Source: Isoetes taiwanensis
Taxonomy: Eukaryota; Streptophyta; Lycopodiopsida; Isoetales; Isoetaceae
Length of the DNA stretch: 64,000 nt
Assembly (NCBI GenBank): GCA_021234155.1
Contig: JAJEKV010000099.1
Location: 3,567,453-3,631,452 of the forward strand
Direction of reading: 5' to 3'
In this document: positions 24,485 through 58,064 of the stretch, piece by piece
Layout of the letters: each line of letters begins with the position of its first letter
How positions within the stretch are numbered: position 1 is the stretch's first letter
Notes under the pieces: model-generated
Told to the model about the DNA's origin: nothing
Database searches by the model: none
Seen by the model: only the letters and a program-made list of their open reading frames with translations
Position numbers and translations under genes: made by a program

Positions 24485-24683
24485 CGTGGAAATGTTGGAT
24501 AACCCATTCGCTCTAATAGGCAAGAAGAACAAGATGGATGCAAATGTATATGTAGACAGATGGGTGAGATGAAAAAGAAAAAAGCCTCAGCCCCTCTTTT
24601 AGCAACCTATTTGGTGGTGAGTTGCTATTGAAGGAAACTAGATGTGGAAAATAGAGGTGTTGGCCATACTCTTAAAACTCATA

Positions 24684-27600
24684 ATGAATTTCAAAATCGT
24701 GGAGTGGAATATCGAGGAGGAGTAAAGTCGTCGGAGTTTAAAAGCAACAGGCTTTCACTAGCACTAAAGAGAGTGAACGCGGATATCATATGTTTTCAAG
24801 AACACAAGTCTAAGAAGGAGGAAGCTGATGTCCTGTTTAAAATAATAGGGAACGAGTATGTTGGAATTGTCTCGGCAAAGGAAAAATCTAGTGCAGGTAC
24901 CTTAATCGCATGGAAAAACACGGTTAAGGTGACAACATCTATGTCGGATAGATTTGGAAGGTGGTCCATCATTGTGTGGCAGCAGAACAACCAATCATGG
25001 GGAATTTTAAATATTTACGCGCATAACAATCCTAGGGGAAGAGGTGCACTATGGGCCTCCCTCAGGCATAAAATCAAAAGTCTTGGTAATCACATAGCAT
25101 GGTTAATGCTAGGCGACTTTAATATGGTGGAGACAGCAGAAGACAGACGTGGTGCAACATCTGACATTGTTAATGGTTTTGAAAAAGAGCAGTGGGGTAA
25201 ATTGATAGACGCCGGTGGACTTATTGAGCTGGAGGGGGATAAAGGTTTCACATGGTGCAACGGCTGGGTGGGACAGGGTAGAGCTTACGCTAGACATGAC
25301 AGGTGTTACGTGAATTACAATACACTCGCCACTTCCCCAACTCTTCGTAGAGTAAACTGCACCGACAATGCGATATCTGATCATAATCCTCAGGTAATTT
25401 CATGCCAGGAATGTAGGAAAAAAGTCTCAAGAACTGTGTTTAAAATGAATATCAAGTATCTGAAAGAGCCTGCTTTTACTGCAAAATGCAAAGAAATTTG
25501 GCAAGCGGCATTTATAAAAGACTCAGGCATGAAGGCCTTAACGGCAGCACTAGCAAATATTAAGCAATTTGCTAAACTGTGGGGGAGAGAAAAAGTACAG
25601 GAGGAGAGAGCATCTTTGGACAAACTATACAGTCAATTGACAACCCTCAGAGCAGCGGGTCCCAATGATGGTACAGAAGAGAAAAAATTAATGGATGAGA
25701 TTAAAAAGTCAGAGGAGACTAAGACTGTCGAGAACAGAAGCAAGGCAGGTTTAACTTGGCTTAGGCAAGCAGATAAATGCTCTAAGTTTTTCTTTAAGGC
25801 TGCCAAGCAGAAGAGATGGTCAACAGCATTATCTAGCATTACACTTGATGATGGGTCGATACTAAAAAGTTGTGATGGGCTTCATAAGTTTCTTCACGAT
25901 CACTTTCAAAGCTTCTTCGGTGAGAAGCGAATGCCATTCCAGGACGAGTTTGAAGAGTTAGTGGTTTCCAAGGTGTCTCCAGTCATAACAAATGAGCAAC
26001 ACCAAATGTTGAGCCGCCCACTTTCTATAGATGATTTGCATCAGGCAGTCATCGCCCTCGACAAAGAGAAGTGTCCGGGGATGGATGGGATTCCAATAGA
26101 GTTTTTTCAGGTTTATTGGGAATGGATTAAAATTGATATATTCTCAGCTTATACAGACTTCCAACAAGCAGACCACCTGGATCCCAAGCTAAATACAGGT
26201 TGTATCGTTTTGATTCCAAAGGGAAAAGACCCATGTACTATCAATGACTGGAGACCCATCACATTGCTGTCGGCATTCTATAAGATAATAGCAAAGGGAA
26301 TGGCAGAGAAAATAAAGCCCATACTTGCAGAAACTATCTCCCCCGTCCAGTCAGGTTTTCTCCCGAGGAAGGAACATTACGCACAATATAGCGGCAGCTT
26401 TTGAGGGGTATGTATTGGGCTAAAAACACAGTCAAAAAGTAGCTTACATCAAGTTGGATTTTACTAAGGCATACGATAGTATCGGGTGGAGCTTTTTATA
26501 TAAAATCTTTGTTAAAATTGGGTTCTTGGGAATTTTTTCTTGGAAGTGTTAAGAGATTACTCCACTCATACGGGCCTCTGTTCTTCTCAGCGGGGAGTTC
26601 TCTCCTATATTCGGCATCCCGAAAGAGGCATTAGGCAGGGGATGCCCACTAGCCCCATTTCTATTTAACATAGCAGCGAAGCTTTCTCACGGCTATTTCT
26701 ACTGAGGCCTCAAGGGATGGTCTAGTAGAAGGTCTTCAAATGGGGATGGATCTCGGCGGATATGCAATCAATAATGAGATGACTCTTTTTGTTTCTAGTA
26801 GCAGAGGAGAGCAATCTAAAGAATGCCAGTCAGTTGTTAGACACTTTCTCCTTGGCCTCAGGATGTCTCATCAACTGGAAGAAATGCTCGGCACAATGGG
26901 CTGGGGAAGGACCACATCCCAGGTGTTTAGAGCACCTCCCGTGGAAAATCATAAAAGCTGGGGAGTATTCTAACCTTCTTGGAATCCCAGTGGGAATTAA
27001 AGTACCCTCAACAAAAGTATGGGATGAGATGATATTAGGATTACATAAGCATCTGAATTGGTGGAAAGTCATAAAACTATCAGCGGTTGGCGGGGATAGT
27101 AGTAGCGAAGCATGTCTTTGTCAAAGACGCACATCTATGTCTCATCTCTCCTCATAGCCACACGGAGAAAGTAAAAAGAAATGGAAGGGACAATTAGAAA
27201 CTTTGTGTGGGGAGGCAACGAGGAAGGAGCACTAGTGAAAATAGCATGGTGGAAATGTAAAAGAGATAAGGAAGAAGGGGGAATAGGCATGATTGACTTA
27301 GCCCTACAAAGCAAAATACTAGTAGCCAAATTCATGTGGAATATTTTAGAGGAGAAAATGAAGTCACAGGGCCTCCAACTCATAGCATGAGGCCATACGT
27401 TTCTCCTGCACACATGCTAAAGTATCAGCACAAGTATCTCTTCCATGGTCTCTATTTTATGGCTTGAAACCAAGTTCTGAGGCCTCACCATTCTTAAGAG
27501 GTCTCATTTCCGTGTGGGACGTGGTGAAAAAGCTCTTCACATTGAATATCGTGGAATTGTGCGGTGAGTACTACTCCACCATGGTGGATTCAGTCAACTA

Positions 27601-28435
27601 CATAATAAGAATGGTCCTCCGCCCTTTTAGGCGACATCGAGTGGTGAGAAGATGGATCAAGCGTGGCATTGGTTAGGTGTGCAATGTGGTACGAAGGTGG
27701 TGGAGTTAACGAGAATGGATGGTATTCAAGAAATTAGGCCTCGAATAACGACAAAACAATGTGGGAATGTATTGCGATAAGTCTTCCAAACCACATAAAT
27801 AGCACAGTAAGAAACCTTGGGTTCTCGATCAATCTTTTGCAAAGAGGGGTCATTTGTGAAATCAACATATAAGCGTCTGAAGACAAAAGGTACTTTATCG
27901 CTACCAGCTCAATGGAATGTGCAAGTCACTAACGCACAGTTGAAGGAAATTTGGAGGGGTGTATGGATGAAACTTCTCCCTCCCCGAGTGAATTCTTTTT
28001 TATGGCAAGTAATTCATAGGGTTCCTATGGTAAACAGAAGGATATCCAAATTCAAAGCTGATGTGAGCCCTCTATGTCCATTGTGCAAGATGGATGAAGA
28101 GTCTCTGGAACATTGCTTAGTAGAGTGTGCGACTGCAAGTTGTGTGGGTGGTGCATGGATATGTTCAACAATACATTGGGGACCAACGATCTCCTTCTAG
28201 GTAGATATCGATTAGAATGGCTAGTCTCAAAAGCATAAAAGCTTTTCATATTGTCAGATCATGGGCATTATGGGTCATATGGAAAAGGCGTAATTCTTTC
28301 ACTCTAGGAAAAGAGGCATATACTACAGCCACACAAATACTGCACATGCTCATAGAGAAGCTTAGAAATTTCAAGTGTGTGGTCGAAGGTGATGTTTCCC
28401 TTGTTTGGGAGACTTTCATCAAGCTACCACCTTAA
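24684..28435 (+). pseudogene. LINE ORF2: endonuclease-reverse transcriptase, frameshifted
   Basis: The likely start is the ATG at 24,684 (MNFKIVEWNIE), with a frameshift close by at about 24,715. The long open part (to 26,404) holds the APE-type endonuclease signature: ICFQEHKS (catalytic E), MLGDFNMVE (D-x-N) and AISDHNPQ (SDH). It then enters reverse transcriptase (CPGMDGIPIEFF; NDWRPITLLSAFYKI; SPVQSGFLPRK). After 26,404 the frame shifts: KLDFTKAYDSIGWSFLYKI and a G-x-RQGCPL-like piece follow in other frames, and the usual [FY]ADD box near 26,775 is not readable. C-terminal fragments (27,181-27,390; 27,817-28,200 with CPLCKMDEESLEHCLVEC; 28,217-28,435) match the zf-RVT region of plant LINEs. 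It would make target-primed cDNA but is inactive as written. Confidence 0.88.
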
Positions 28436-28578
28436 GAAGAAGGCATCTACATTCATTCTAAAAGGGCTTTGTAGCTATCCCCTCTTCAAACTTGTTCAGG
28501 AGGGTGTCTATCTGCTATAAGGCTGTGTAATAGTTTACCTATAAATGGAAAATTCTTTATCCTTCAAAAAAAAAAAAA

Positions 28579-28840
28579 ATATTAACAAAATGAAATTGCT
28601 ATATCATACTACATTGTCCAATTTTGATAAAATTCCATAAAAGATAAGAGACATGTGTTACTTACGTCAGTTTTTCAATCTTCCTCTCTGACTGCATATA
28701 GTTTCTTATTTGCTCGTATACACTGAATTGCAAAGCAAATACCAAACATAATGTTACATGTTTGAGTCTTAACGACCCAGCCAATTAAACAAGACAAGTA
28801 CCTGAATTACTATTTCTAGAATATCCCGCAATAATGTGGT
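28579..28840 (+). repeat. Right flank of the LINE, continuing the duplicated host segment
   Basis: Starts with the 16-bp target duplication, matches 3,305-3,463 and then, past the TAA at 28,749-28,751, matches 21,674-21,763. This uninterrupted version is the empty site of the 18.2 kb TIR element. Confidence 0.88.
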
Positions 28841-30102
28841 CAGGCAGTGGAAATAGGGCAGAGGGCGCAGTATAGCAGAAGGGCCGGCTATGGCGCCGGA
28901 AGGTATTCCCTTGTTGCTCCGCTGGCAATCCCCAAATCCAACCATCTATTTGCATCAACGGTGCAAAATTGAAATTGATGACAAACACTAAAAAATCCCT
29001 AGATGCAAAATTGAAATTGATGACAAACACTCAAAAATCCATAGTATAAAGAGAGATATAGAGAGATAGATAGATTTAACAAAAGTTTAAGCATTCGCGA
29101 AAATGTAATGCATGTGCATCGCATGTTTTATCTCATAAGTAATCCACCCAGGGAGGACATGTAGATTATTTGAAATAGTCTGTACTACTTGCTGCAAGAT
29201 CTTTGAAAGCCATGGTGGGTTCTAAACAATAAACTTAATCATTTCTAGAGAACATTATCAGTATGCCTTGTGGCATTCAAATAAGTGTAGGATTAAATAG
29301 CTAGAGGCACCAACTCCTATAAAACCAGTTGTCTTGTCATTAATCTTTTGTTATTATCTAGACGAACACATGGAGTTTTGCCATACATTTTGAGCATAAA
29401 ATGATCACTGGAAGTACGATATGGTATCTTAGATTTATCTGGCATTCGTCGTTGAGAAGCAACCAAATTGACAAGATAAAGAGAAGCAACATATTGTCGC
29501 ATCCAGAAAACTAGTAAAGTTAATTATTTCTCTTTCTCAATGCATAACCACTTCATATGAAATGTCCAAAAGCTATTTTAAAACATGGATTCAATTTGAA
29601 AGACAATTGCATTTCACATTCCCATGGAAAGTATCAGTTGGATCCTTCGAACAACAAATCCTGGTGGAAAAACAGGCTATGAACTGTCTTAAAATGCCTA
29701 ACCAGAAGATGATTCAGATCCAATCTCATTTTAGCGCATAAACCATGTTTTAATTGCTAACCACTAGAGAATGATAAGTATGAAATCTTTAGTATGAAGA
29801 TGTTTCAGTATTTGTTATGATGCTCTCTCAAGTTGAACTGTTAGTGGACACTGCAATAATAGCAAAAGAAACAAGATTGTGCTCAGACAGCTTATCAAAC
29901 ACATATTATGTACCTCCAGACTTCACACTTACCATATATATTTGTAAGAGAACTTCCAACAACATCATCCCTACCTATCATGCGTATGTGCATATCTAGA
30001 TAAAATTATCAAAGCAAAGAGAATATACAAATGCAGATCCCTTTATGTCACGATATTGACAATTTGATAATAGGGAATATGAAATAGATAGATTTAACAT
30101 TT
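28841..30102. other. No gene seen; short repeats
   Basis: A 34-bp word 'gcaaaattgaaattgatgac' occurs twice (28,960 and 29,004). GATA-rich runs lie near 29,045-29,075. No coding domain is recognised. It corresponds to 48,950-50,202. Confidence 0.5.
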
Positions 30103-30342
30103 GTGTACAGGTTTTTGGGGAATGTAGGAACGTTAAAATGCAATTTAGATCAAGAACCACTACGAAAAATAGTTCCTGATCTTAGCCAACATATTGCAGA
30201 AGGATTTCTCGTTGCTTTCAGCCATCATAACATAGCTACCAGACGTGCACTAGTTAATCAACGTCATGGAACCGACGTCCAAAATGGAAAGTTTGTATAT
30301 ATTACATTCATTACCCTACATTGGGTGTTGCCTAGAGCTTAA
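30103..30342 (+). CDS. Candidate exon or small ORF of unknown function, copy A
   Basis: Not recognised. An open frame of 79 codons follows a plausible acceptor (TTTGTGTACAG, ending 30,110), and a GT donor is available near 30,292 after 'caaaatggaaa'. The peptide includes LSQHIAEGFLVAFSHHNIAT. The same sequence occurs unchanged at 50,203-50,442 inside a perfectly matching block. Identity of the copies reflects recent duplication and is not evidence of selection, so this could be non-coding. Confidence 0.25.
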   Translation: MYRFLGNVGTLKCNLDQEPLRKIVPDLSQHIAEGFLVAFSHHNIATRRALVNQRHGTDVQNGKFVYITFITLHWVLPRA

Positions 30343-30724
30343 GCTTTCATGTTTCTTTTTAACTTTTATTAAAAGCAAGTTGAGAACCATCGATTTGATA
30401 GATTCCAAGAAATATTGTACTATCCAATGGATAAAGAGCAATAATACAAAAAAGGTCATAGATACATTAGATGTAAGTTTAAGATTACCATTTGAACTCT
30501 CTAATGCGATCCAAATTCATCTGCTTTGGAACCCAACTTGGCGAACTGAGGTAGACTAGAAAAATGCAAATTGAAAGGAAGAGATTTTGCTTAAATTATA
30601 CGGTAGTTAACTTATTTTGTAAAATGGAAAATAGAATAGAATAGAAAAGAAAGAAGAAAAGAAGTTACATCTAATATATATTTCTATGACTTGGATGCAC
30701 TAGCATTTTATTTTTGAGTAGTGA
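30343..30724. other. 3' flank of the lectin gene; no gene seen
   Basis: AT-rich, with AGAAT pentanucleotide repeats near 30,630. The matching stretch in copy B is 50,443-50,823. Confidence 0.5.
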
Positions 30725-31129
30725 TCACTGATAGGTATTAGTAGCCCAAATAGGCACGTTGGCAGGAGTATATATCACAGCGTTCCCATCATTCTGCATG
30801 ATCAAGTAGTAGTTGTCCAATTTGCGATCAGTACCGCTTGCCCAGACTGGAGAATTAGTGTTAGAATAGATGACAAGATTGCCATCACTTTGCATGGTTA
30901 AAACACAACCATTTGCTTTACCACTAGTTCCAGAATTCCATAGAGGTCTCTCATAGTCAACCTGATACAAGACCAGATTGCAATCGACTTGCATCACGAA
31001 ATTATATGCTCCATTTGAAGATGTGAGTTCTTGTCTTGCTTTCAAGCTTTCCCCGGCTTTTAATGTATCGATTGCCATGCATAAGCTAAAATATAATTCC
31101 ATTATTGAGAGAAACAACCACCTTGCCAT
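30725..31129 (-). CDS. GNA-type (bulb-type) mannose-binding lectin, copy A
   Basis: A single-exon protein of 134 residues, the usual size for a single-domain Galanthus-type lectin. I chose the ATG at 31,129 (MARWLFLSIMELYFSLCMAI) because it gives a hydrophobic signal peptide followed by DTLKAGESLKARQELTSSNG, the normal mature start; an upstream in-frame ATG at 31,216 would bury the signal. The three carbohydrate sites of the family (Q-x-D-x-N-x-V-x-Y) are present as QVDCNLVLY, QSDGNLVIY and QNDGNAVIY (third site A before V, otherwise intact). Such proteins bind mannose, are usually secreted or vacuolar, and act in defence or storage. A TATTTATA word lies 28-40 bp upstream of the ATG, too close for a confident promoter call. 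Copy B (50,823-51,219) is broken. Confidence 0.85.
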   Translation of the reverse strand: MARWLFLSIMELYFSLCMAIDTLKAGESLKARQELTSSNGAYNFVMQVDCNLVLYQVDYERPLWNSGTSGKANGCVLTMQSDGNLVIYSNTNSPVWASGTDRKLDNYYLIMQNDGNAVIYTPANVPIWATNTYQ

Positions 31130-31216
31130 AGCTATACACTTAGCTCCATCCAGTAACTGTATAAATATTGGAAAATAGAGGATGGTATGACGTAGTACGT
31201 CCCAATTAAGAAGCAA

Positions 31217-32453
31217 GTTGAAAATGAGGATTCCAACTTGTGAAAGAAAGCCACCAAAGCAAGCACGATAACAATAGTTTCAAAGTTCTTGTTGAAAATG
31301 AGGCTCAACTCGAGAAAAATAGCCACCCAAAGGCACGGTAATAGTATGTTTCAAAGAAATGGGCCTTGGTTAAGTTGAAAATGGGGTTCCCAATATAAGA
31401 AAGAAATCCACTCAAGGTACGGGGGTATTGTGTTTCAAAGTGAAGGACCCTTATTATAGAAAATGAGCCTACCAAACTATGGGAAGACATCAATCCAAGT
31501 AATTGTTTTCAAAGTAATGGATACTTATTTAAGCCTCAAGTTGAAATTGATGGAAGCAATTATGATGCTTTCTATTATAGTCTCTTTTGTCGCTTTCTGC
31601 ATCACCAACAAAAGAGGAGGTTATCCAGGTGCGAATTCCATTGTATAGTTTTTATACTCCTTTACCATTAGATATATGTATATTTATGATTGTTTAACGA
31701 AATATATGTTAGATACATGTTGCATACTTTAAAGCACGATAGATAGAGAGATAAAAGAATTGAACGGAGAGATAGATAGATAGATAGATAGATGGATGGA
31801 TGGATGAATGGATGGATGGTTGTTTTCACGTCACGCCACTAGGCAACATCCAACTGGACAAGTGACCACACTACATTGCTCGGTTGCTCGAAGAATATAG
31901 AGACATAGTAAGGAGATATTAGAAAGAGAATAGATAAAAAGAGAATAGAGAGGGAAGAGAAAGAATTAAATTGAATTGAAATACTTTTTATCATCCATGG
32001 AAACTAACAGGTCTATGCGACCCAATAGAAGGAAGAGCATAGGAAGCCCATTATTGTACAGGATTAGAAAACCCCCACCCTAAATGGGGGTTTTAGGAAA
32101 AACCCTTGTCAATAATGAGCTTGTAGACCCATGGCCATTCACATAGGATCCATCTTATTTATACAGATAGAATAGAATAGAATAGATTTTTTTAACGTCC
32201 ACGAAGACTAAGAGGCCATGGGACCATAAAATGGCCTAGTACAACCAATTACTACTAGGATTAAAAAACTCCTGCCTCGAAAGGTTTTCAACAGGACATG
32301 CCACCTACGTGCGTAGGGTAGCTAAAAAACCCCTAGTATATGGGTTTATGATAGGAAATCACCCCCTCCCATTCATGCACGTGGTTTTGATAGGTTCCAT
32401 AGGGTGAAGCCCTCTTGTGGCCATTGTGTATGTGACGTTCCACGTATTTATAT
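31217..32453. other. No gene; tetranucleotide and pentanucleotide repeats
   Basis: GATA then GATG repeats run at 31,738-31,820, and AGAAT repeats at 32,164-32,186. The words 'ttgaaaatg' and 'gtttcaaag' recur at intervals between 31,210 and 31,510. A perfect 10-bp hairpin lies at 32,068-32,094. Confidence 0.6.
32068..32094. repeat. Perfect hairpin AAAACCCCCA / TGGGGGTTTT
   Basis: 10-bp arms with a 7-base loop CCCTAAA, preserved in copy B at 52,152-52,178. The G-run could also form other DNA structures. Its role is unknown. Confidence 0.6.
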
Positions 32454-32719
32454 GGTCTACGTCACGTATTTATACGGGACACGTACAAATACAAGCACGT
32501 CACCCCCTAAAGGTACGCCACCATGCGGGTATGGGAACTTAATGGTAACCTAGGGGGTTACTCTTAAAAGGATTAAATTAGCTTTATACGGTCTACGTCA
32601 CGTATTTATACGGGACACGTACAAATACAAGCACGTCACCCCCTAAAGGTACGCCACCATGCGGGTATGGGAACTTAATGGTAACCTAGGGGGTTACTCT
32701 TAAAAGGATTAAATTAGCT
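32454..32719 (+). repeat. 136-bp tandem repeat, two units
   Basis: Units start at 32,454 and 32,590 with GGTCTACGTCACGTATTTAT and are virtually identical. The pair is also present in copy B (52,541-52,804), where the second unit has changes. It sits just before the presumed chromovirus 5' region and contains CACGT words. Confidence 0.88.
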
Positions 32720-34154
32720 AATTTAATACATTAAAGATAATAACTTAATTAGGCTAATTTACGTTGGGGAAAGCCACACCTTGTCAATTAGGCGACATGG
32801 GGGTTGCCAAGTTTGGATGCCAACATGACCCCTATCCCAGGGGATTGATTCCCGAAGGTCGCGACCAAGGAAGGCGGGAGCTGAGCGCCATCATACACTG
32901 CAGAAAACCACCATACCGGTCGTTCTGTGAAGCAGCGGTGAATTCTCAACTCCCGGGAGATGGAGGCCCATGGAAATGAGTCCGGCCGTAATCTGGTGGG
33001 TGGCTATGTGAATTATAGATAACACTTGGTTGTGTGTCTCTCTGTTCTCTTTGTGACTCAATCATAGAAACTAACCCTTGATTGTACAAGCAAGTTCTCT
33101 TTATATTTAATTACGGTTCTTACTCGAAAGGATGGATTGTTAGTTCTTTTGTTTAATCGGACTCAAAAGGGGGGGATTAGGGGGTAGAGACCTCCAAGCG
33201 CAGGTATTGTAGTATGTTCCTAGATAGCGCCTGTAGAGTCCCATTAAGTGCTCGCACTTTGTGCAAGAGCCCACGGGTCCCTAGATGCTATGGTCCGGCA
33301 GCACCGGACAAAGGAACACGATGGTGACATGAGGGGTGGGGTCTTGCACGGCATACAAGGCTCACGAGACTCCCTCTGATGGGCTAGGCGATGCTTGGGT
33401 CCCGCGTAGAGGGCGGGTATGGGTCGACACTCCACTGGGTGTAGAGGTGTGATCCGATGCGGAGCACCTTGCACTTTGAGTAGATTTAGGGTGAGTAAAG
33501 CCGGGATGCGGATGCGGGGGTGTGATGCGTACGTATTCTCTAGCTCACCCATGGAACCACCCTGTGATTACGGAAGGGGCGCTTCCCAGGCACGCCTCAT
33601 CCGGACCGGCGTCATGAACACGAGTAGGTTCAAAGGGTGATACCTTGAACTTCTGCGTCTCAGGAAGGCTATAGCGAAGTCATAGCATGAATTGACCCAT
33701 CTACAAAGTGTGCGGGAGGGGCGGATGGAGTGGACAACCCTAGCGAAGTTCTATGCCCGATAGCGCCATGCCAAGACCTGGATGCCTTATCTCTTGAGGC
33801 CCGGCCGCCGGTCGATCCTCAGGAGTCCGAGGGGGTGGAACCTGGGTTTTGGGGCGTTTTCTTAGGTTTAGATGCATATTCTATCACGGGTTGGTATTTG
33901 GATGGATCGCCACCCCTTCGTGGTGGTTATTTATGTATATTCGCATCGTGTGCTAACCCTTGTATTTCATGCTTCCGCGACGTAGGAGTGCTATTGAAGG
34001 TGGGCGAATGACCCTTCGTGTCCTTCTTGGGCCTCATTTCATAGATGGCCGAAAGCGACGGAGGGGCCCGCTCATGGTGAGATGATCGCCATGGGAGGGG
34101 AAAGTCCCGTATGTATCACGTCGGAAGGTGCATTATATATTAGGGCGTCCGTGA

Positions 34155-34165
34155 TGGTATCGAGC
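34155..34165 (+). promoter_or_regulatory. Degraded primer-binding site for initiator tRNA-Met, copy A
   Basis: TGGTATCGAGC reads like the usual plant LTR-element site TGGTATCAGAGC with its CAG reduced to CG. That is exactly the change seen at many other CAG words here. It would place the 5' LTR end near 34,150. The B copy has AGGTATCGAAGC at 54,229-54,240. Confidence 0.45.
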
Positions 34166-34903
34166 GTGATTTGTTGCTTTCGAAATCATAGTGGCAGCCA
34201 AACACTAACTCGTGAGCACCGGTAGTTAGGAGGAGGCTAAGTCAATGTGTCGTTAGTTCTCTTTGTTGTTTGGCTTGGTGTTAGGTTAAGTGAGGAAATC
34301 GTAGCTTTGAAGTGGAGGCCTAAGATTGGAGGCCTAACAGGTGTCGGGCTGGTAGCTCAAATGACGAAGATGATGGTTCCATTGGATCGGGGAGTACTCG
34401 AATTACCCTAGAACTGATCAACTCTAGGCGAAAAATGGTCAAGGCGTGCCCAAAACAAACTTCGAGCGTAGCTTGCCTTTTGTAGTTTTGTAGTCAAGGC
34501 AGGAAGCGCCGAAATCTTTGTCGGCCGCACTCGAACCAGTCCGAGTCAGACCTGGTCCCGCCAGTCAACCCCAGGCGGCTTTGCTTTTCGACGAGCCTTG
34601 ATCCAAAGGCTGAAGTTCAGATAATGCTGGCCGTTGCGGCTCGAAGTAGGTTGCAGCGTATTTCGCCCGTATATTTTTTAATAATAAAAATTTCGAAGTT
34701 AATAAGAAAAAACTTGAAATTTTAAAAGTTAAGAGGCCGTTTAACAAACCATTTCTTGTCATTTGCTTTTGCTTGGCGCCTCCAACGCTTTGAGCCGCCC
34801 TCGCTTATCGCCGGGGACGGGACCTTGCTCCTATGACCTTGTGCCTTATTGCATCTTAGCGGCCTCTTTGCCATCCCTTTGCCGCCCAGCCTCACTAGCC
34901 GCT
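34166..34903. other. Chromovirus leader before the first extra frame
   Basis: No coding domain. It contains degraded GC-rich patches that differ between copies and a conserved AT-rich stretch 'gttaagaggccgtttaacaa' (34,728) just before the leader ORF. Confidence 0.5.
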
Positions 34904-35790
34904 ATGGCCATCACCAAGAGCTCCGATCCAACTACCTTGAGCATCGTGGAGATCTACGCCATGATTGCCAAGCACATGGCTACCGACCCGGCCCTCATTG
35001 ATATCCTGTTAGATGAGGTGAGCAGGGTTTGAAAACAACGGCGTGATTCCATTTCCTATTTATCACTTCTACGAGCCATTCTTGATCAGAATTTGAACGC
35101 CAAACTCTCCTATACCATTGTTGAGCAACGACATGGTCATGATGCTCATTAAATTCTATCCTCCGGCGAGGAAGGCCATTTGAGGAGGAAGATATCAGGG
35201 CAGGGCCGACCGTATCGAGGGTTTGGCATGGGGAGGAAGATCATAGGGGAGATCGGCGAGGCGGAATCTGGCCCGTGGAAGGGGAATGCCAGGTACCTCG
35301 GGGGCGGCTTTTGCCCGCCATTGATGTGAGCCATTGAGGTTCCCCATCACCGGCATGAGGATTCCTACGTTTTGTATGGGGAGAAATCGAGATCGGCATA
35401 GACTATCTGATAACCATTCAGAGATAGACATGGGTCTCAAGGACCACAATCGGTACCAAAAGCCTGAACTTAATCGGTAGTCGGCTGCGACCGGATGTTT
35501 GCTCAGATTCGAGGAGGATCTGGGCGAGAGCTAGGGAGGAACGGGAAGCTCGAAAGGGGAGGAGCCGGGACCGCAAGACCAGCGGGACCAGGCAAGATGG
35601 AGGGAGCATCCCGGGAGTGGGCGGGCCCAATCCGGCGCACGAGCTGATCGTTAAGCACCGGAGGAAGGGTGTCAAGCCCATAAGTCCGGCCGATCAATAC
35701 AAGGAGAAGTTAAGGAATATGTCGGGGCTTTGGGAAGAAGACACTTCTCGGCCAGGAGACAGCAGGTTGACAATGCCCGACCGTTCTTTG
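34904..35790 (+). pseudogene. Leader ORF a, N-terminal and coiled-coil part, copy A (frameshifted)
   Basis: It starts at ATG 34,904 in a good plant context (GCTATGGCC) with MAITKSSDPTTLSIVEIYAM. After about 43 codons the frame is lost, and pieces of the same protein continue in other frames to about 35,790. Comparison with the open copy B (54,978-55,727) shows that the breaks are small, often at CAG/CTG. The function of this part is unknown. Confidence 0.6.
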
Positions 35791-35810
35791 GGGCTAAGAC
35801 GGTGCCACAC

Positions 35811-36135
35811 CGGCCCGGGGCCAAAGGAAGCCCGGGCGCAGCTGGAGCCCGGAAGCCTCCCGGACCGGCGATGCGTGGCCTGCGGGAAATCCAGAAATTT
35901 CAGAAGTCTCTGAGCTTGGATCGAGGGAAGCTACCTTCCGAGTCGGCACGGAGATCGCCTGGCCAGTTCAAGACCGATCTCCGTTTCACCTTTGCAATTT
36001 TGGCGCCCAAGAGGTCAAGCCTACTTGGTAGCACTTTTTGGTGACGCCAATCTTTGCGCGATCCACGCAAAGAGGGTCACCATAATGCCTAAGGATTTGG
36101 CCCTCGCCCGCAGGATACGGGGGGAGCATCCTTAG
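35811..36135 (+). pseudogene. Histone H3 fold encoded in the chromovirus leader, copy A
   Basis: The histone core of leader ORF a. [13 protein letters not shown] (35,880-35,918) matches the alpha-N and alpha-1 start of H3, KLP follows, then FKTDLRF (about 35,967) matches the alpha-2 start. From 36,019 the frame is clean to the TAG at 36,135: [20 protein letters not shown] then [18 protein letters not shown], the alpha-2/loop/alpha-3 end of H3, differing from canonical H3 at only a few positions. Histone H3 pairs with H4 in the nucleosome. There is no extra loop-1 residue block and no C-terminal extension, so it resembles ordinary H3 more than CENH3. The tail (AKTVP, AKGSPGAAGARKP) is unlike the normal H3 tail and lacks its ARTKQTARKS start. 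Two or three frameshifts interrupt the middle and may be sequence errors. Confidence 0.88.
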
Positions 36136-36145
36136 CACGCAATTG

Positions 36146-36267
<122 letters not shown>

Positions 36268-36448
36268 TTGTTTTTGTTTTTGTGTAATATTTAATAAAGA
36301 GACTTTTATTTTGAATTAAAAAGTTTAATGGTTTTTATGTTAATAATAAACTAAAGTGCTGACGTCAGTTTTTAAAAGGGGTTTAAAAGGGGACTTTTAA
36401 GGGTTATTTCAAACGCTTTTTCTTTTCCTCTCCTCTCCTTCTAGCGCC

Positions 36449-37833
36449 ATGGCCGGCCGACCTTTGCTTGCCCGGTACCATGAGGGAGAGAAATGGGATC
36501 CACAAGTTCCCTTCGATCGCGTTGCAGAGCCTTTGCTATGCCAACGCATAGACCTCCTCGCCAATATCGGCATCAGGATTACGCCGGATTCCTTGATTCT
36601 ACATGGAGGAAATGCTTCCTCTATTGTGTATTCTCCGGGGATCCTCCCCAATTGTATTTGAGCGGGAGATAGTCCCAAGCAGATGTTAGCGGGACACACA
36701 TGCTTATGACGTCCTCAAGGGGAAACTCCGATGGGGTAAACACCGCCGCTGGTCCAAAGATCGTGGGCGGCAATATCTGGAAGCTACTTTCGCCTCGGCC
36801 ATCCTCATGGACCAACACGCTGAGGATGAAACCTTGCCTCAGAGAGAAGGGCAAACCGCCTGAGTCCCTCCGAGGAGGGGGATGATGAGCATATAGGTAT
36901 GGGCGATTTTGTATGTTGGAAAGAGCTATATGAGGAGTTACCACATATACCGCGGAACAAGCTATAGGCTTGTCGGGGGTTAGACGGCCTTCCAGCTTAT
37001 CTATCACCAAGGGCAAGAGTACCTTCTCTTGGATGATATTATCCGGACGTATCACATGGTGGTTTTACGTTAAGCATAAGGACCATGTACTTTATGAGCT
37101 TCGAAAGGGGCATGGATGATTTTATTGACTTCACTTCTACCGAAGCTTCCGTTTTGCAGCAGCTACTCCAATTCCGCCAAGAGACCATAGAGCGCCGAGA
37201 CTCTATTACGCCTGAGGACCTTTGTGATCCGAGGTTCCGCAGCCTTCACCGTGACGCCACTCGCTATGGGACCTCACGCCCCAAACATCAACATGGTTGA
37301 GGTTCCCTCCGACTCGATGATGAGGGAGAGGATTTATATCATAATCCCGCATATAAGAAGGAGAAGCAACAGGAACTTAAGGAGGAGGAAGTCCCCATGG
37401 ACTTGGATAAGGAAGTGGCAAAGACATCGAGACTCCGGAAGGAAGGTGCCGGGTAACCACCTTACGCTTTTTGTCGGCCTTCCAGGCAGGGCAAGTCCTC
37501 TTCTATAGCCCAGGGATCTAGGGGGTAAACACTGAAGCTTCATGGTGGGCCCTCCGCGTTTCTCTCAACATTGGCTTGGCTACAAGAAGCTTCCCTATCT
37601 TACCTTTACTTATGTTCTCGCATTTTATCGGGATCTCGCCTGGACGGCCTGGGGTCGGGGATGTTGCTCTTTGGATGGGAATGAATCCTCAGCGGCCCCA
37701 TTGGCCGTTGCATATCCACCGAGGTTGCATCCGCTAGGCCGCCACAGGACCCCCGGGGTAACTCGGCTGCGTAATCGACCGCCTCCACCACCTCCTAGGG
37801 CGGGGGATAAAGAGGCAGGGCCTAGTTCCTAGA
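36449..37833 (+). pseudogene. Leader ORF b, copy A (frameshifted)
   Basis: It begins at ATG 36,449 ([20 protein letters not shown]; context GCCATGGCC) and ends at the TAG near 37,833 after a proline-rich tail. The frame breaks several times. In copy B the part from 56,774 to 57,919 is open, which gives the better view of the protein. No family is recognised. Confidence 0.55.
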
Positions 37834-37863
37834 CTAATGGGGCTATACAATTTTTGTTTACAT

Positions 37864-38866
37864 TCGACCATTAGTTCCATTAGTTCCTAGACTAATGGGG
37901 CTATACAATTTTTTGCTATATTCGACCATGCAATGATAGGTGAAAGCAAATTCCAGATAAGTGGAAGCATTTTTGCTCTATCTTAGATTAGAACAGAAAA
38001 TATGATTATTCCGATGTCGCCCGATTTTGGTAACTTGCTATTTGTTCAATCCCAAGTCAACACTATCTGATCAAATGTGATAGGTGGATCAAATATATTC
38101 TGGTCCAGCAAATGAACTGTTCATGTGGGAGCTATCTCCAATAATATAGGAGGAACTTCGAACATTTTGGGAGAGCGTTCGAAAGAGGTAACCAAGACTT
38201 CATCTCTTAGAAGTTTTCATATCTATGAAGGTGTACGTGAAGGTGTACTGCATGTACATGGAGTCTCTTGGATGATAAAATGGAGATTCATAATGATGTG
38301 CTGCTCTGTATTAACTAATTTTTTTGGAACATGATACTCAGTGTATGGCTCACAAATTGGAGTACATTTACATTTGCAAAGAAAGATTGTGAAATACATG
38401 CATATTTATTATTTTATTTTATTTTATTATTGCTTTTAGTAATTTTAGATTGGCTGGATGTTTTGGGACTGGGACACTAGTCCTCTACATATGCCAAGAC
38501 AAGAATTTGCTTGTTAACACAACTAACTTGATCATGTAGACTATCTTGTTAGAATTTCTATTTGGGGCTAAGCTTTTAGTCCTCTTTAGAAAACACACTT
38601 GATAGTTCTATATGCAGCACATAAAAAGTAAATTGATAAGACCTTATTTCAGAAAATGCCTAGTTTGGGGTTGATAAATCAGACCTCATTAGGTAGGCTC
38701 TGTAATGATGGGTATAGTAATAATTGCATAATTTAACGCTAAGACACCGGGATAAAGTGATTTGGGCCCGGTAAGTAGCTAATAGGGGCTATAAAAATCT
38801 CAAGTTCTAACGAGTGTTAGTATTTGGAGTAGAATGTTTGCTAGATTAGATCCTAGTAAATAGCTA

Positions 38867-38867
<1 letters not shown>
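37864..38867. other. About 1 kb present in copy A but absent from copy B
   Basis: Copy B passes directly from 'ttttgtttacat' into (TA)n, whereas copy A has this extra AT-rich kilobase first. It begins with a 58-bp direct repeat (units at 37,823 and 37,881, TAGTTCCTAGACTAATGGGG). No gene or transposon end is seen. It could be an insertion in A or a TA-mediated deletion in B. Confidence 0.65.

Positions 38868-38930
<63 letters not shown>
38868..38930. repeat. (TA)n microsatellite before leader ORF c, copy A
   Basis: About 63 bp of TA repeats; the copy B tract (57,948-58,061) is longer. Confidence 0.97.
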
Positions 38931-38933
<3 letters not shown>

Positions 38934-39086
38934 AGTATTTATGGGATTTTGGATTGGAAACTGTTGGGAACATATTGAAAAATTGTGTAACTTATTTACT
39001 TATGAAATACAAAGTTCTCTTGATGAGTATAGCTGAATTGTTTCTTTCATAACATCCTCTTCAAAAGCATTAAAGTTTAGGATATA

Positions 39087-39585
39087 GTGGCATTACAAAT
39101 GTTCTCTATTCATTTTGACTATGTTGCAGAGGAAACCATTTGGGAATATGAGGAGAGAATCACCGATATGGTTAGGAGGGATGATCCTGGACCCCCAGAC
39201 CAGGACTATGGCCAGAGATATGGTGAATATCCAGAGTGGGATGAAGGCAATGAGATCGAACCACCGCCACCAGCAGAACCTTATGATCCTGATAAAGGGC
39301 TGGAGATAGTCAATATCCTTAGGGACAGAGCTTTCGAGGATCTGAAGATGACCCTGTGCCGTACCTGGGACTATTGGAATATGAGCAGGTACGCGGCTTT
39401 CGAGGACGCCAATGACCATCTTTGGCAACTCTTCTATGCTCTGCGAAGGCTTTTCAATCTTCTCATTATCAGCCCCACATGGGAATACCAACGATGCTGA
39501 TTGTCCAAGCACAGGCACGTTATAAACTCGTTAGAATTTGCATGCGGAGAGTACCCGCTCATAATCCTATACCCCTTCGCGAACC
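39087..39585 (+). pseudogene. Leader ORF c, copy A (frameshift near the end)
   Basis: Nearly identical to 58,217-58,717. The frame breaks at 39,495, where copy B's 'caaccagtgatt' reads 'caacgatgctgatt'. The preceding ATGTTGCAG (ending 39,129) is a good splice acceptor and AATAAA lies at 39,720-39,725. See copy B for a description of the protein. Confidence 0.6.
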
Positions 39586-39800
39586 CCTAGGCTTGGCTAT
39601 GTTTTTTTTGTTGCTGCTATGCTGTGTGCAAGTAAAACTTTAAGATCTCCACTGTATCATACCTACTTTTGTATCAAACCATGTACCAATTAACTTGTTG
39701 TTGTACTCAACTTGAATGAAATAAAAATATTACTTTTTTGTTTGTATATTCTTTTTTGTCTCCATTATTTTAAAGGGATTGTACATTAATGTAACTCTGC

Positions 39801-40990
39801 TTATATATTCATGAATGCTCCCTATATAGGCAAGACGTAACGCGCTTAGCGGAACACCTCCAACGCCCGAGGGTGACACGGAGCAGGGAATTGATTTTAA
39901 TGAAGACCAACTGTTAATTCAAGGCCTATGTATTGCATACCAATCACGAACAAACCCGGGAGGGCCGGACCAGAATTACCTGCAAATTGAGTCCACACTG
40001 ACCAAGCTAATGCACTGTACCCACGGAGGTCTCATGCTAAGCGTCAAGAAGTTCCTCTAAGGATAACGCTTCCTCACACTCAACCACTTTGGTGTCTTAC
40101 GGGTCATCGCTATCGATCCTTGACCATGCGAGCGTAAGGATAAGGAATGCAAGTAAGACGTTGATCTGACCATAACTAGTATATGGAAGAGCAGGAAGTT
40201 GGCTCAATTTGATGGAAAATCCGAGGAGGAGGCTTGAATCACGGGAGAATCTTGGTTGGACGAAATGAAGGAGTTTGGGAAGTCCTATGGAATGGCCGAG
40301 GAGAAGGATACGGGGAAAGGTTGCCACCACCAACCTAGGAGCTGCCCGTATTTTGGTGGAAGGGTTATGCGAGCTAAGCACACAGGCGGGGCGGCGGATG
40401 CAAGTTCAAAAAAGTTCGCTAAGGCTTTTAAATCACATTACGTGCCTCGTCGTGCACAAATGCCCGGCAGATCCGGACCTTTTTACGAGGTTAGAACAAA
40501 AGGGCATGTCCGTTCGGGCCTACACTGATGAATTCATGCGATTGAGGTTATGCGTACAGGAAATGAATGAAAAGAGGCGATAGAGGGCTACATTGAAGGG
40601 TTGGCCCCATCTATTAAGCGAATGGTCAAGGCCATAGACCCAAAATCAATGGGAAGGCGGAAGCTAAGGCATTAAGCCTCGAGGAGGACCGCCGCGGAAC
40701 CCGATGTCGCTGACCTGCTCCTTACTCGCGACAGCGGCCCGTCCACCTTACAAACCCCGTTCCCCAAGTCCGGGGCCCTCTCAGCGGAGAACTCTTACGG
40801 CCCGCCCGGGAAGAAAAGTCACCTTTAACACTCGGATAAGCGAGAACAATCTTTGGTAAGGAAGTTGGAACCTCTTGCAGTCCATTCCTAAAGAGGCGAG
40901 AGAACGGCTCGTCGAGATAAGGCATGCTACAGTGTATGAGGCTGGACACTTCATGCGAAAGAACTGCCGTCGCACGTCCTTGAGGCCCCT
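39801..40990 (+). pseudogene. Chromovirus gag, copy A (frameshifted)
   Basis: Pieces of the retrotransposon gag domain (WLDEMKEFGKSYGM at about 40,255; FKSHYVP) and a CCHC knuckle at 40,925-40,966 (CYSV/CMR..GHF in mixed frames, with a final Cys visible here but not in copy B). Many one- and two-base differences from copy B break the frame. Confidence 0.7.
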
Positions 40991-40999
40991 TGGTAGCCA

Positions 41000-43900
41000 T
41001 GGTAGACCTTGATTGGGAAGATCCGAGTCAATCTCCTACGCGGAGGGCCAGGCTCGAATACATTCCGCGGTCGTCTCATATTCTTGCCGCTATAGAAGCG
41101 ACCTTGTTTGAAAGTCGACCTACATTATTTCTACAATAGGCCAAGTAGACGATAAGCCCTTCATAATTTTGATGGACCGCGGGTGAAATGCATAATTTTG
41201 CTTCTCTAGAATGGCCAGTCTTTGCGGCTGGAAGCGTTGAGATCCCGCCCTAAACCCGGTCATGCTAGCGGTGGTAAGATCGGACACACTCATGGCGCCC
41301 GATTAACCTTAATCACGGTTGCGGGTGCACGGTTGCTTTGGGTCTTGAGTTAATGGACATTGGCAAATATGACCTTATTGTTGGTATGGAGTTTTTGGCA
41401 TCTGCGAAGGCCAACATAGGCTGTGAGAAAGCAGGGGGTCACCTTCAACGCCGCTAATGGAGCACGTGTGACTATAAAGGTGATTCATTCCACTCCGCTA
41501 TATGCGTCGATGTCAATAAACAAGTTAGAAAAAAGCTATACGCTGAGAAATGAACTCTTTTGTCTCATTAAACTTGCCTCCAATGAGTCGACTCTAAGCA
41601 GAAGCAAATGTCGGACGCCTTAGCACCGAGACATTGCTACCCTTCTTGAGAATTTAGCGATCTTTTTCGGATGAGATCGAAGCTTCCTCCTTTGGAGGGG
41701 TAGAATGTGAGATAGCTCTAGAACGGTACTAAGCCTACCGGCAAGGCCCGTGCGAATGAGTCCTCGAGTTGGCGAGCTTAAGAAACAACTTCAAGAGTTA
41801 CTAAACCTAGGTTTTATTGACCTAGTGTTTCACCATTTGGCGCTCCTATTCTTTTTGTCAAGAAGAAAGATGGCTCCTTAAGGATGTGTATTGATTATAG
41901 TCACTCAATAAGCATACCATAAAAATCGCTATGCTTTGCCTAGGGCAGATGATCTTATGGACCCGATTACAAGGAGCAAAATATTTCTCAAAGATTGATT
42001 TCGCTCCGGATACCATCGGATAAGGATAAAGGAGGAGGACATTCATAAGTCTGCTTTTTAGCACGGATATGGGCATTATGAGTTTACCGTCATGCCTTTT
42101 GGATTGACCAATGCCCCGCAGCGTTTATGCGGTTGATGAATGACATCTTCCGCCCAATACTTGGATGACTTTATTGTCATTTTCTTTGATGACATTCTCA
42201 TCTATAGTAAAACCTTTGCAGCAACATGAACAACATCTTGATTGGCTTTTGCGAAGCTAAAGGCGCCATCAGCTCTTTGCCAAGTTTTCTAAATGCAAGT
42301 TAAGCCACTCAGGGTTGACTATTTGGGGCATATTATTTCCTTGAAGGAATTGCTCTGGACCACCAAGATAGAGGCGATAAAGGATTGGCCCATTCGGCTA
42401 ATGTTTGAGGAAGTTCGCGATTTCTTGGGACTCGCGGGGATATTATCGAAAGTTTGTTAAGGATTTTGCAACAATTGCCGCACCTCTTACTAATCTCACA
42501 AAGCATGAAAGTGAAGGATTGGATGGAACATTGGAAATCAAAAGTCAAGTTGGCTTCGAGAAACTAAAGGATGCTTTAACATCCATACCGGTCCTCACTT
42601 TGCGATCACGAAAAGGATAAATCGCGGGTATGATGCTAGTAAGATAGCTACTGAGGTGGAGTGTTTAATGAGGGGGAGGGAGAGTTGTTGCCCACGATTC
42701 AAAAGATGAATGGCATTGAACAGCGATACCCTACCCATGACCAGGAATTGTTGGCGGTTGTCCAGGAGCTCACCGTATTTGGAGACACTACCTTCTACAA
42801 AGATTTCAGCTAGATACGGATCATCGAGTCTCCGTTATCTATCCACCCGGCCAAATCTCAATCTCGATCGGCGAAGATGGATGGAATTCCTCGAGGAATA
42901 TGACTTGAGATTGTCTACAAGCGGAGGAAAGCACAATGTGGTTGCGGATGCTTTGTCACGTCATCCCTTCATAACCCGGACCCATTGTAGCGCCATTTCC
43001 ACACTCACCCGCGAGTTTGGGAAGCGGATAAAGCAGACCCGGCCCGAGATCGAATGCAGCCTTAATATTTGGGAAAGTTTGAGTAGGAAGCCCGTACCAA
43101 TAAAGAGCGTGGAAGCATTCCGTTCATATAAGAAAGAGGGCAATTTGTTATATCACAAGGATAAGTTGTGTGTTCAGTGACTTGAGGGCAAAGGCGATTC
43201 TCCATGACACACAATGACCCTATAGCGAGGACATGCGGGTTTTATGAAAACTTACTTTAAGATCCGCTCCGGCTATTTTTGGCCTTGATGAAGAAGGATA
43301 TTGCTAGGTACATCAAGCGGTGCGGCGGGTTTGTCGACAAACCAAAGGGTGAGCAATTAAGAGTTCGGGGAGTTGCAACCTTTGGATGTGCCCAATGCCA
43401 AGTGGGAAGTTATAACCATGGATTTCATTGTGGGCCTTCCCCGCACTCTCGTGGATATGATGCATTAATGGTCGTGGTTGACAAATTATCAAAAAAGATG
43501 GCTCACTTCACGCCATGTCGCTCCCACAGACACCGCCGCCTTGACGCCTTGCTCTTTGCAAAAGAAATTTTTCGGGTTGCGCGGGATGCGAGGAGTAATT
43601 GTATCGAGATAGGGATCCTAAGTTTGTCGATTGCATTACGGAAGGATTTCTTCGCCACCATCGAGACCAAGCTTGCCATGAGTGCTGACTTACCATCCTC
43701 AGACGGATGGTCCAAGCGAGCGTGTCAATCGATGTATCGAAGGCAATACTACTGGCTATGTATGGAGTGCTTGATCAATGGGCGGATTATATTTATCACG
43801 GTAGAGTTCGCCTATAATAATCGGCGAAGCAGAGTCTTCAAAGATGTCTCCCCTTCATGATAAATTATATTTATCAATGTCTTACTCCAGACACGTGGCA

Positions 43901-44085
43901 TAACCCTGTTTCTAAGGTGGGGAGGTCTCTCAACAACTCCTTCTAGAAATCACGGCAGGCCTTGGTGGAAGAAGTTCAGGGTTACTTATTGGCCCACAGT
44001 CATCAGAAAACCTAGCGGATAAACACCCGAACCCACGGAGATCTTCCGGTGGGCGAATGGTTTGGCTTAGATTAAAAAGTAAAAC
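41000..44085 (+). pseudogene. Chromovirus pol, copy A (protease, RT, RNase H, integrase; frameshifted, 3' truncated)
   Basis: The order is the same as in copy B. Recognisable parts are the protease/linker (YDLIVGMEFLAS at 41,369), RT ([15 protein letters not shown] at about 41,850; [12 protein letters not shown] at 42,082; [10 protein letters not shown] near 42,180), RNase H (42,640-42,960, with [12 protein letters not shown] at 42,930) and integrase (MDFIVGLP at 43,419). The copy ends at the duplication junction, so the chromodomain is missing. Confidence 0.78.
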
Positions 44086-44097
44086 ACTAGAGATGAC
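44086..44097. other. Junction of the 20 kb tandem duplication
   Basis: Left of it the sequence matches 63,170-63,250 (end of integrase). Right of it the sequence matches 23,990 onward (inside LINE ORF1). A few bases between are unassigned, and I see no obvious long homology at the two parental breakpoints. Confidence 0.75.
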
Positions 44098-48685: not shown

Positions 48686-50202
48686 ATATTAACAAAATGA
48701 AATTGCTATATCATACTACATTGTCCAATTTTGATAAAATTCCATAAAAGATAAGAGACATGTGTGTTACTTACGTTCGGTTTTCAATCTTCCTCTCGAC
48801 CGCATATAGTTTCTTATTTGCTCGTATACTTGAATTGCAAAAGCAAATACCAACATAATGTTACATGTTTGAGTCTTAACGACCAGCCAATTAAACAAGA
48901 CAAGTACCTGAATTACTATTTCTAGAATATCCATAATAATGTGGTTAGAGGCGGTGGAAATAGAGGCGGTAGGTGATATAGCGAAGGAGGCGGCTATGGC
49001 GGAAAGGTATTCCCTTGTTGCTCGGGCAATCCCCAAATCCAACCATCTATTTGCATCAACGGTTTAAAATTGAAATTGATGACAAACACTAAAAATCCTA
49101 GATGCAAAATTGAAATTGATGACAAACACTCAAAAATCCATAGTATAAAAGAGAGATATAGAGATAGATAGATTTAACAAAGTTTAAGCATTAGCGAAAA
49201 TGTAATGCATGTGCATCATGTTTTATCTCATAAGTAATCCACCCGGGGAGGACATGTAGATTATTTGAAATAGTCTGTACTACTAGCTTTGAGATCTTTG
49301 AAAACCATGGTGGGTTCTAAACAATAAACAATCATTTCTAGAGAACATTATCGGTATGCCTTGTGGCATTCAAATAAGTGTAGGATTAAATAGCTAGAGG
49401 CACCAACTCCCTATAAAACCGGTTGTCTTGTCATTAATCTTTTGTTATTATCTAGACGAACACATGGAGTTTTGCCATACATTTTGAGCATAAAATGATC
49501 ACTGGAAGTCTGATATGGTATCTTAGATTTATCGGCATTAATTCGTTGAGAAGCAACCAAATTGACAAGATAAAGAAAGCAACATATTGTCGCATCCAGA
49601 AAACTAGTAAAAGTTAATTATTTCTCTTTCTCAATGCATAACCACTTCATATGAAATGTCCAAAAGCTATTTTAAAACATGGATTCAATTTGAAGACAAT
49701 TGCATTTCACATTCCCATGGAAAGTATCGATTGGATCGCCGAACAACAAATCCCCGGTGGAAAAGCAGGGCTATGAGCTGTCTTAAAATGCCTAACGGGG
49801 AAGATGATTGAATCAATCTCATTTTAAGCGCATAAACCATGTTTTAATTGCTAACCACTAGAGAAATGATAAAAGTATGAAATCTTTAGTATGAAGATGT
49901 TTTGGTATTTGTTATGATGCTCTCTCAAGTTGAACTGTTAGTGGACCTTGCTTGCAATAATAGCAAAAAGAAACAAGATTGCTCAACAGCTTATCAAACA
50001 CATATTATGTACCTCCAGACTTCACACTTACCATATATATATTTGTAGAGAACTTCCAACAACATCATCCCTACCTATCATGCGTATGTGCATATCTAGA
50101 TAAAATTATCAAAGCAAAGAGAATATACAAATGCAGATCCCTTTATGTCACGATATTGACAATTTGATAATAGGGAATATGAAATAGATAGATTTAACAT
50201 TT
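48686..50202. other. Copy B of the LINE flank; no gene seen
   Basis: Corresponds to 28,579-30,102 with many small differences up to about 49,980, after which it is identical. Confidence 0.6.
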
Positions 50203-54228: not shown

Positions 54229-54240
54229 AGGTATCGAAGC
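54229..54240 (+). promoter_or_regulatory. Degraded primer-binding site, copy B
   Basis: AGGTATCGAAGC aligns with the copy A word TGGTATCGAGC and with the plant initiator-tRNA site. The preceding 'gtccaca' would suit an LTR ending in CA. Confidence 0.4.
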
Positions 54241-56195: not shown

Positions 56196-56218
56196 CATAT
56201 ATATGTAAAAAAATTGTA

Positions 56219-56347
<129 letters not shown>

Positions 56348-57938: not shown

Positions 57939-58064
<126 letters not shown>

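Follow-up and report, generated by a model that had tools for sequence, protein, structure and literature searches.

Can a plant retrotransposon carry a core histone of its own? The question is raised by a stretch of 64,000 nucleotides from the lycophyte Isoetes taiwanensis (GenBank assembly GCA_021234155.1, contig JAJEKV010000099.1, positions 3,567,453 to 3,631,452 of the forward strand). We call this whole stretch the window and count positions from its first letter. A sequence-only reading of it had proposed a chromovirus with a histone H3 fold encoded ahead of gag. The window contains such an element, duplicated in tandem. The element belongs, with near certainty, to a chromovirus lineage in which the first gene after the 5' long terminal repeat (LTR) encodes a conserved H3-fusion protein of about 410 to 460 residues.

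Histone H3 match in the window

The translation of 35914-36132 matches the Pfam Histone profile at 5.7e-13 and solved H3 chains at 2.7e-16. This bears out the earlier claim that 36,019-36,135 encodes the end of an H3 fold, and the match is significant, so the objection that the region might lack an H3 profile match falls away. A second frame (35655-36041) matches residues 22-96 of a solved H3 chain at 8.2e-7 and has no Pfam match on its own. With a typed H3.1 query, tblastn placed residues 98-134 at 36016-36126 (84% identity) and residues 19-91 at 35796-36005 (40%), with an E value of 3e-21 for this first place. The same query matched a second place, with residues 27-118 at 55893-56144 (1.8e-7) and stops inside.

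From the window alone, H3 could plausibly have been a stand-alone gene that starts at an ATG near 35794 or 55841. We rejected it because all 20 of the long-frame relatives described below read through into H3.

Fusion gene copies across the genome

The I. taiwanensis genome (1,658,258,908 bases in 1110 contigs) was searched with the Pfam Histone profile. The best 150 of 8705 candidates were scored, which biases the sample to conserved H3. Profile positions 2 to 122 were covered by 15 of the 150 scored matches. Eight of these were fetched (L001-L008), and they are canonical H3 genes. Forty element copies were taken from the remaining 135 matches. Twenty of them were chosen for long open frames and fetched at ten kilobases (kb) each. 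The other 20, most of them high-ranking in the list, were fetched at 2.25 kb each.

All 20 copies chosen for long frames contain one open frame of 444 to 494 codons from stop to stop. The encoded protein starts with an N-terminal domain, continues with a coiled region and a basic linker, and ends in a complete H3 core. Counted from the first plausible methionine, the protein has 411 to 459 residues in 19 of the 20 copies; L017 lacks that start. The Pfam Histone profile matches all 20 fusion proteins (best, 3.6e-44). The H3 core lies in a single open frame in 40/40 copies, in part owing to the selection method. Further copies with intact frames, which had been sought as a check, do exist. The single fusion protein of about 400 residues that had been predicted for the window is found in these relatives, and the window itself is not readable in one frame. 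The 249-codon frame with a coiled coil that had been placed ahead of the H3 end is also real. It is open, with a predicted long helix, and it lies in the second duplicate (Table 1).

The 40 copies comprise at least three subfamilies. The 21 longest include 13 of subfamily A, 7 of B, and 1 of C. The window belongs to subfamily C: in best matches, the 249-codon frame shares 81% identity with L018 and 31 to 38% with the 19 others.

As a control blind to H3, the genome was searched with the N-terminal domain alone, and the best 150 of 3530 candidates were taken. Fifteen rows, at about every tenth place in the list, were sampled, and their downstream stretches were fetched. H3 was matched downstream in 15/15. 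Copies lacking H3 had been named as the sign of a one-off insertion; none was seen, and H3 is therefore a standing part of the gene in this sample. Since only the best 150 were scored, the genome could still contain older or shorter copies that lack H3. The H3 core was found in one open frame by pattern in 9 of the 15 copies. L065 has one unbroken match over H3 residues 9-135, and the pattern missed it through a substitution. The H3 is split over two frames in L055 and L063, and the match begins at residue 54 in L056. L057 and L064 match H3 at 38 to 39% identity with stops. N-domain frames of at least 400 codons were present in 84 of the 150 candidates.

Selection on the H3 core

Ratios of nonsynonymous to synonymous substitution (dN/dS) were calculated for 21 copies, in 99 pairs within subfamilies. 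Medians rose from 0.039 in the H3 core (96 usable pairs) through 0.102 in the 45 codons ahead of the core (95 pairs) and 0.114 in the N domain (77 pairs) to 0.198 in the coil and linker (94 pairs). This was the check proposed for the H3 part, and it came out in favor of constraint. Silent sites are saturated between subfamilies, where the core median was 0.052 with 8 of 111 pairs usable.

Across the 40 copies (780 pairs), core differences were 0.487 at 4-fold sites versus 0.022 at second positions. Among the 92 core codons, 56 show silent variation only, 35 have an amino acid change in at least one copy, and 1 is invariant. The N-domain-sampled copies gave 0.333 at 4-fold sites versus 0.022 at second positions (9 copies, 36 pairs). 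The corresponding values for unbroken matches to the element's other domains were 0.386 and 0.017 for the gag capsid (10 loci), 0.234 and 0.006 for reverse transcriptase (RT; 7 loci), and 0.383 and 0.016 for RNase H (9 loci). The constraint on the H3 core is about equal to that on the element's own essential domains. The sample is nonrandom, and picking high-scoring H3 copies is by itself unable to yield a twenty-fold gap between silent sites and second positions. Purifying selection on the H3 core is strong, and it is seen in several subfamilies that have diverged from each other.

H3 core, replaced tail, and N-terminal domain

All 40 fetched copies align with host H3 across 92 core residues, from alpha-N to alpha-3, without gaps. 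Over these residues they are 80 to 89% identical to host H3. The best match in a profile search was H3.3 (5.2e-69). The search matched 181 PDB sequences, and the 60 best all have names of the H3 kind (H3, H3.1, H3.2, H3.3, or H3-like). Fifty-six of the 92 core residues equal the host residue in 40/40 copies. These include R69, R72, R83, C110, H113, K115, R116, T118, R129, and R131. R49 is host identical in 39/40 copies and R63 in 38/40. Several of these kept residues we take to be contacts to DNA or part of the H3-H3' interface. Five positions differ from host H3 in 40/40 copies: S86, S87, E105, T107 (always A), and A135. The shared T107A change and the related N domains suggest one single capture of host H3. 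The coding frame of the host H3 genes L001-L008 is uninterrupted, and the absence of introns from the element is therefore uninformative on RNA-mediated capture.

The canonical tail, with ARTKQTARKS and AARKS, was not found in the 40 copies. Subfamilies A and B contain RAKHPSTGGKS or RKARHPGTAGKT in place of the H3 sequence TARKSTGGKAP, and they have no ARKS. The one copy of the 40 with ARKS in its open frame is L018, where it lies further upstream. In subfamily C (L018 and L051-L065), a linker ARK(S/T) occurs further upstream in 10 of 16 copies, counting any of three frames. It resembles the H3 K9 or K27 site.

The N-terminal domain (54978-55640 in the window; 2602-3270 in L018) is conserved across subfamilies. 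By sequence, it has no match in Pfam or the PDB. A tblastn search of viral contigs with the 249-codon frame gave no relative. A single-sequence structure model of this frame had a mean predicted local distance difference test (pLDDT) score of 46 and was poor except for a long helix at residues 184-233. A fold search with the N domain (Foldseek) gave nothing firm (best E, 0.073), with models too poor to exclude a known fold.

Element structure

The element is a chromovirus, as had been claimed. Gag, protease (PR), RT, RNase H, integrase (IN), and chromodomain are present, and a related copy (L010) has LTRs, a primer site, and a target duplication. The same LTR start is found in the window at two positions (Table 1). 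The 3' LTR falls beyond the window, so only the 5' LTR is inside. None of the primer-site patterns matched in the window, because the site there is corrupted. Rfam gave 0 matches on the window.

L010 contains its H3 frame (2522-3880) between the 5' LTR (116-1799) and the 3' LTR. Its primer site, TGGTATCAGAGCC, begins one base past the 5' LTR, and a 5-bp target duplication (CAATC) is present on both outer sides. The LTR pair is 90% identical over 1786 columns (131 gap columns) and 97% identical over the first 359. A stop divides gag-pol into one frame of 883 codons and another of 713. Gag, RVP_2, RVT_1, RNase H, H2C2, and Chromo (PF00385, 6.3e-8) are above the Pfam cut-offs. The integrase core scores 29.6 bits, just below the cut-off of 32.6, and a gag zinc-knuckle piece matches weakly. 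The pol order PR-RT-RNase H-IN is found in the window pieces and in L010.

Among the ten-kb loci, a second open reading frame (ORF2) follows the fusion gene in 19/20, and gag or pol is present on the same strand in 18/20. L011 and L022 have no gag or pol inside the ten-kb stretch, and L010 lacks ORF2 and ORF3. ORF2 and ORF3, which lie between the fusion gene and gag, recur in other copies and had no Pfam match. The relatives also confirm that H3 lies upstream of gag, where its core is the C-terminal module of one frame.

Table 1. Positions of the tandem units and of the element's parts in the window.
Feature	Position	Strand	Evidence or remark
First tandem unit	23990..44086	.	About 89% identical to second unit
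Second tandem unit	44097..63252	.	About 89% identical to first unit
5' LTR, first duplicate	32431..34153	+	TGTGACGTTCCA at 32431; alignment with L010 LTR (32599-32747, 33023-34290); ends set by eye from L010
Corrupted primer-binding site, first duplicate	~34154	+	Judged by eye against L010 LTR/primer site
Fusion gene N-terminal domain and coiled region, first duplicate, frame broken	34904..35640	+	Match to L018 fusion over 34904-36132, three overlapping frames
H3 module, first duplicate, two frames	35796..36132	+	Pfam Histone, solved H3 chains, tblastn
ORF2, first duplicate, frame broken, no known domain	36449..37857	+	L018 aligns at 36353-37857; pieces without Pfam match
ORF3, first duplicate, no known domain	39081..39497	+	
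Gag-pol, first duplicate, cut by duplication junction	40047..44075	+	L010 alignment
5' LTR, second duplicate	52515..54227	+	Ends by eye; corrupted primer-binding site at ~54229
Fusion gene N-terminal domain and coiled region, second duplicate, open, 249 codons	54978..55724	+	81% identity to L018 (best match)
H3 module, second duplicate, broken	55893..56169	+	tblastn, L018 fusion match
ORF2 open part, second duplicate	56762..57916	+	
ORF3, second duplicate	58211..58714	+	
Gag pieces	58943..59974	+	Retrotrans_gag 2.7e-5; Ty3_capsid weak
Protease, RT, and RNase H pieces	60400..62203	+	RVP_2 4.7e-5, RVT_1 8.3e-24, RT_RNaseH 3.7e-27
Integrase pieces	62648..63234	+	rve 0.013, below cut-off
Chromodomain fragment, 28 residues	63514..63597	+	PF00385 2.8e-4, below cut-off

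Tandem duplication and broken frames

A tandem duplication of 20 kb occupies much of the window, and its two units are about 89% identical. The two H3 places are therefore one insertion counted twice, and we ruled them out as independent insertions. The earlier observation of the fold in damaged form near 55,855-56,195 holds as to the H3 match. It does not hold as to a separate copy of the element, and the label "damaged" is doubtful.

In the aligned duplicates, mismatch was 30.1% at CG/CHG positions versus 6.8% at others, and imperfect alignment adds part of the mismatch away from CG/CHG. CAG is intact between duplicates in 32% of cases, CG in 55%, and AT in 85%. Substitutions between the duplicates number 1061 transitions and 919 transversions; gap events number 431, and 350 of these span 1 or 2 bases. 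Identical runs reach 486 bases. The open copy alternates by region. The frame of a long interspersed nuclear element (LINE) is open in the first duplicate and broken in the second, and the 249- and 385-codon frames are open in the second and broken in the first. An AT-rich segment of about 1 kb (37864-38867) is present in the first unit only; the second unit has a (TA)n run instead.

If methylated cytosines had decayed, most changes should be transitions. The pattern as a whole is the one to be expected of long-read base-calling error at methylated sites. The assembly was built on Oxford Nanopore (ONT) R9.4.1 reads, with racon and pilon used for polishing, according to the part of its description used here (PMC8566536). 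DNA modification as a cause of nanopore errors is the topic of another paper, as far as its available part states (PMC10687267). The frame breaks in the window are probably mainly technical, and some are possibly real. CG/CHG mismatch together with short indels is a likely signature of nanopore errors and can help to assess frame breaks in the rest of the assembly. The case illustrates how well-kept genes may look like pseudogenes when bases at methylated sites are miscalled.

Possible roles of the fusion protein

The kept core residues suggest that the protein enters H3-H4 complexes and is likely to be part of nucleosomes. From the replacement of the tail and from an N domain specific to the element, it seems likely that the fusion brings something of the element along. 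We propose that a host H3 was captured once by the element and that the fusion would pair with host H4 and enter nucleosomes or H3-H4 tetramers. Through the N-terminal part and the coil, proteins or DNA of the element would be anchored on this chromatin. The outcome could be help with integration or a shaping of the chromatin at new copies.

To judge from its residues, the fusion is probably incorporated with host H4. This incorporation and the description of the lineage, taken jointly, are likewise probable. A chromatin tether may be the main benefit, with a chance that falls a little short of even. It is also possible, and we suggest it tentatively, that the element makes its own nucleosomes. 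The H3 fusion would be deposited with host H4. The N domain, the coil, and, in subfamily C, the histone-like ARK(S/T) would make these nucleosomes docking sites for element proteins (for example, the chromodomain integrase) or would make chromatin that resists normal silencing by the host. We infer a ranking with the chromatin tether first and changed or less silenceable chromatin, which is rather unlikely, second; a decoy and packaging are less likely.

Several points weigh against this proposal. S86, S87, E105, and T107 are changed in every copy, and ordinary H3 deposition is therefore not to be assumed. A fusion model built from 20 rows had a mean pLDDT of 56, with values below 55 over most of the H3 region. 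Six of the 15 N-domain copies fail the one-frame core pattern, L057 and L064 are badly broken, and L052 lacks the last core residues. The 40 copies come from the best 150 of 8705 H3-profile candidates, with their bias to conserved H3, and the N-domain sample (best 150 of 3530) offsets that bias only in part.

The fusion could instead be an anti-silencing histone. The element's H3 tail would lack the usual K9 and K27 methylation sites, and its chromatin would escape silencing. The canonical tail is indeed replaced, ARKS is confined to L018 among the 40 open frames, and subfamilies A and B have their own sequences at this place. The window's subfamily points the other way, with its upstream ARK(S/T) in 10 of 16 copies, and subfamily A keeps the lysine in RAKHP. 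A trans-acting protein would also mark more than the element copies. We consider this explanation unlikely. The stricter candidate, an H3 with all silencing sites lost, is weakened by the ARK(S/T) of the window's subfamily.

A decoy would occupy H3 chaperones or H4, or poison host chromatin, without stable entry into nucleosomes. It would fit the changes at S86, S87, and E105 in 40/40 copies, which presumably lie near chaperone contact sites. It would not need the residues that we take to be DNA contacts, and these are kept (R69, R72, R83, and T118 in 40/40, R49 in 39, and R63 in 38). A decoy role is improbable.

Packaging, in which the protein would condense element cDNA or RNA inside the particle, is quite improbable. 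The basic linker and the core, which is of a DNA-binding type, speak for it. Against it, gag already has a zinc-knuckle piece, albeit weak, and H3 depends on H4 for DNA wrapping.

A hitchhiking pseudogene, that is, a host H3 fragment carried by chance without a role, is highly improbable: both window frames are broken and the available part of one report describes similar cases in fungal hAT elements (PMC6710886), but amino acids are kept while silent sites have changed, and H3 is present in 15/15 N-domain copies.

Other features of the window

A D-mannose binding lectin gene or pseudogene lies on the minus strand at 30728-31279 and, duplicated with the unit, at 50980-51441. The copy at 30728-31279 matches PF01453 at 4.8e-10, and its best solved relative at 2.5e-33. 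The LINE, at 22054-28197, contains endonuclease, RT, and zf-RVT pieces, and the duplication begins inside it. One satellite-like repeat array is present in two orientations, at 10947-12021 and 17262-20492. Between the two arrays is a 2.3-kb inverted repeat (14756-17097).

Comparison with known systems and significance

The fusion shares the H3 fold with host H3 and CENH3 and is close to host H3 over its core. It differs from both in its tail, which consists of a long linker, a coil, and the N domain. CENH3 has a longer loop 1; the element's loop 1 aligns with host H3 without gaps in 40/40 copies. Large DNA viruses that code for several core histones are also parasites with core histones of their own. 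Here, H3 occurs alone, fused, and in a retrotransposon.

The element resembles plant chromoviruses (Ty3/gypsy) in its LTRs, its tRNA-Met type primer site, its gag, its PR-RT-RNase H-IN order, and its chromodomain. Extra frames and captured domains in plant Gypsy elements are known from earlier work, as the available parts of three papers state (PMC6317226, PMC7264820, PMC9289625). One such arrangement, shared with the present element, is eORF-5'F, in which an additional sense frame precedes gag (Neumann et al. 2019, PMC6317226); the extra frame of the present element differs in ending in a complete H3 core. The prominent eORF domains in the part of that paper available to us are the plant mobile domain, Transposase_28, and Athila ORF-1, and a histone is not named there (PMC6317226). 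An orchid Gypsy element likewise carries a captured host domain as an extra frame, an RNA-demethylase (2-ODD) domain, which according to the available text acts on RNA (PMC9289625). The same source describes a screen of 121 angiosperm genomes with 15 frequent extra domains. No histone is among those named in the part available, and lycophytes were outside the screen (PMC9289625).

Fungal hAT elements are also mobile elements with many H3-like gene copies (PMC3538342, PMC6710886). As far as the available parts of these reports go, they are DNA transposons in which H3L is a separate frame between inverted repeats, and the H3L copies of P. fijiensis are damaged by repeat-induced point mutation (RIP). 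The present element is a retrotransposon with a fusion under purifying selection. It has LTRs and gag-pol, and the Pfam matches listed include no hAT domain; no search was made for terminal inverted repeats. We found no report of a retrotransposon-coded histone in the open-access literature. The word "histone" is absent from the main text of the I. taiwanensis genome paper, in the version available (PMC8566536).

Core histones are regarded as the property of the host. A chromovirus that keeps a nucleosome-like H3 core would show that retrotransposons can supply chromatin besides targeting it. If the element does make its own nucleosomes, a mobile element would be writing chromatin, beyond reading it, through a core histone of its own. 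The lineage would also be a natural experiment in how much of H3 beyond the core is replaceable.
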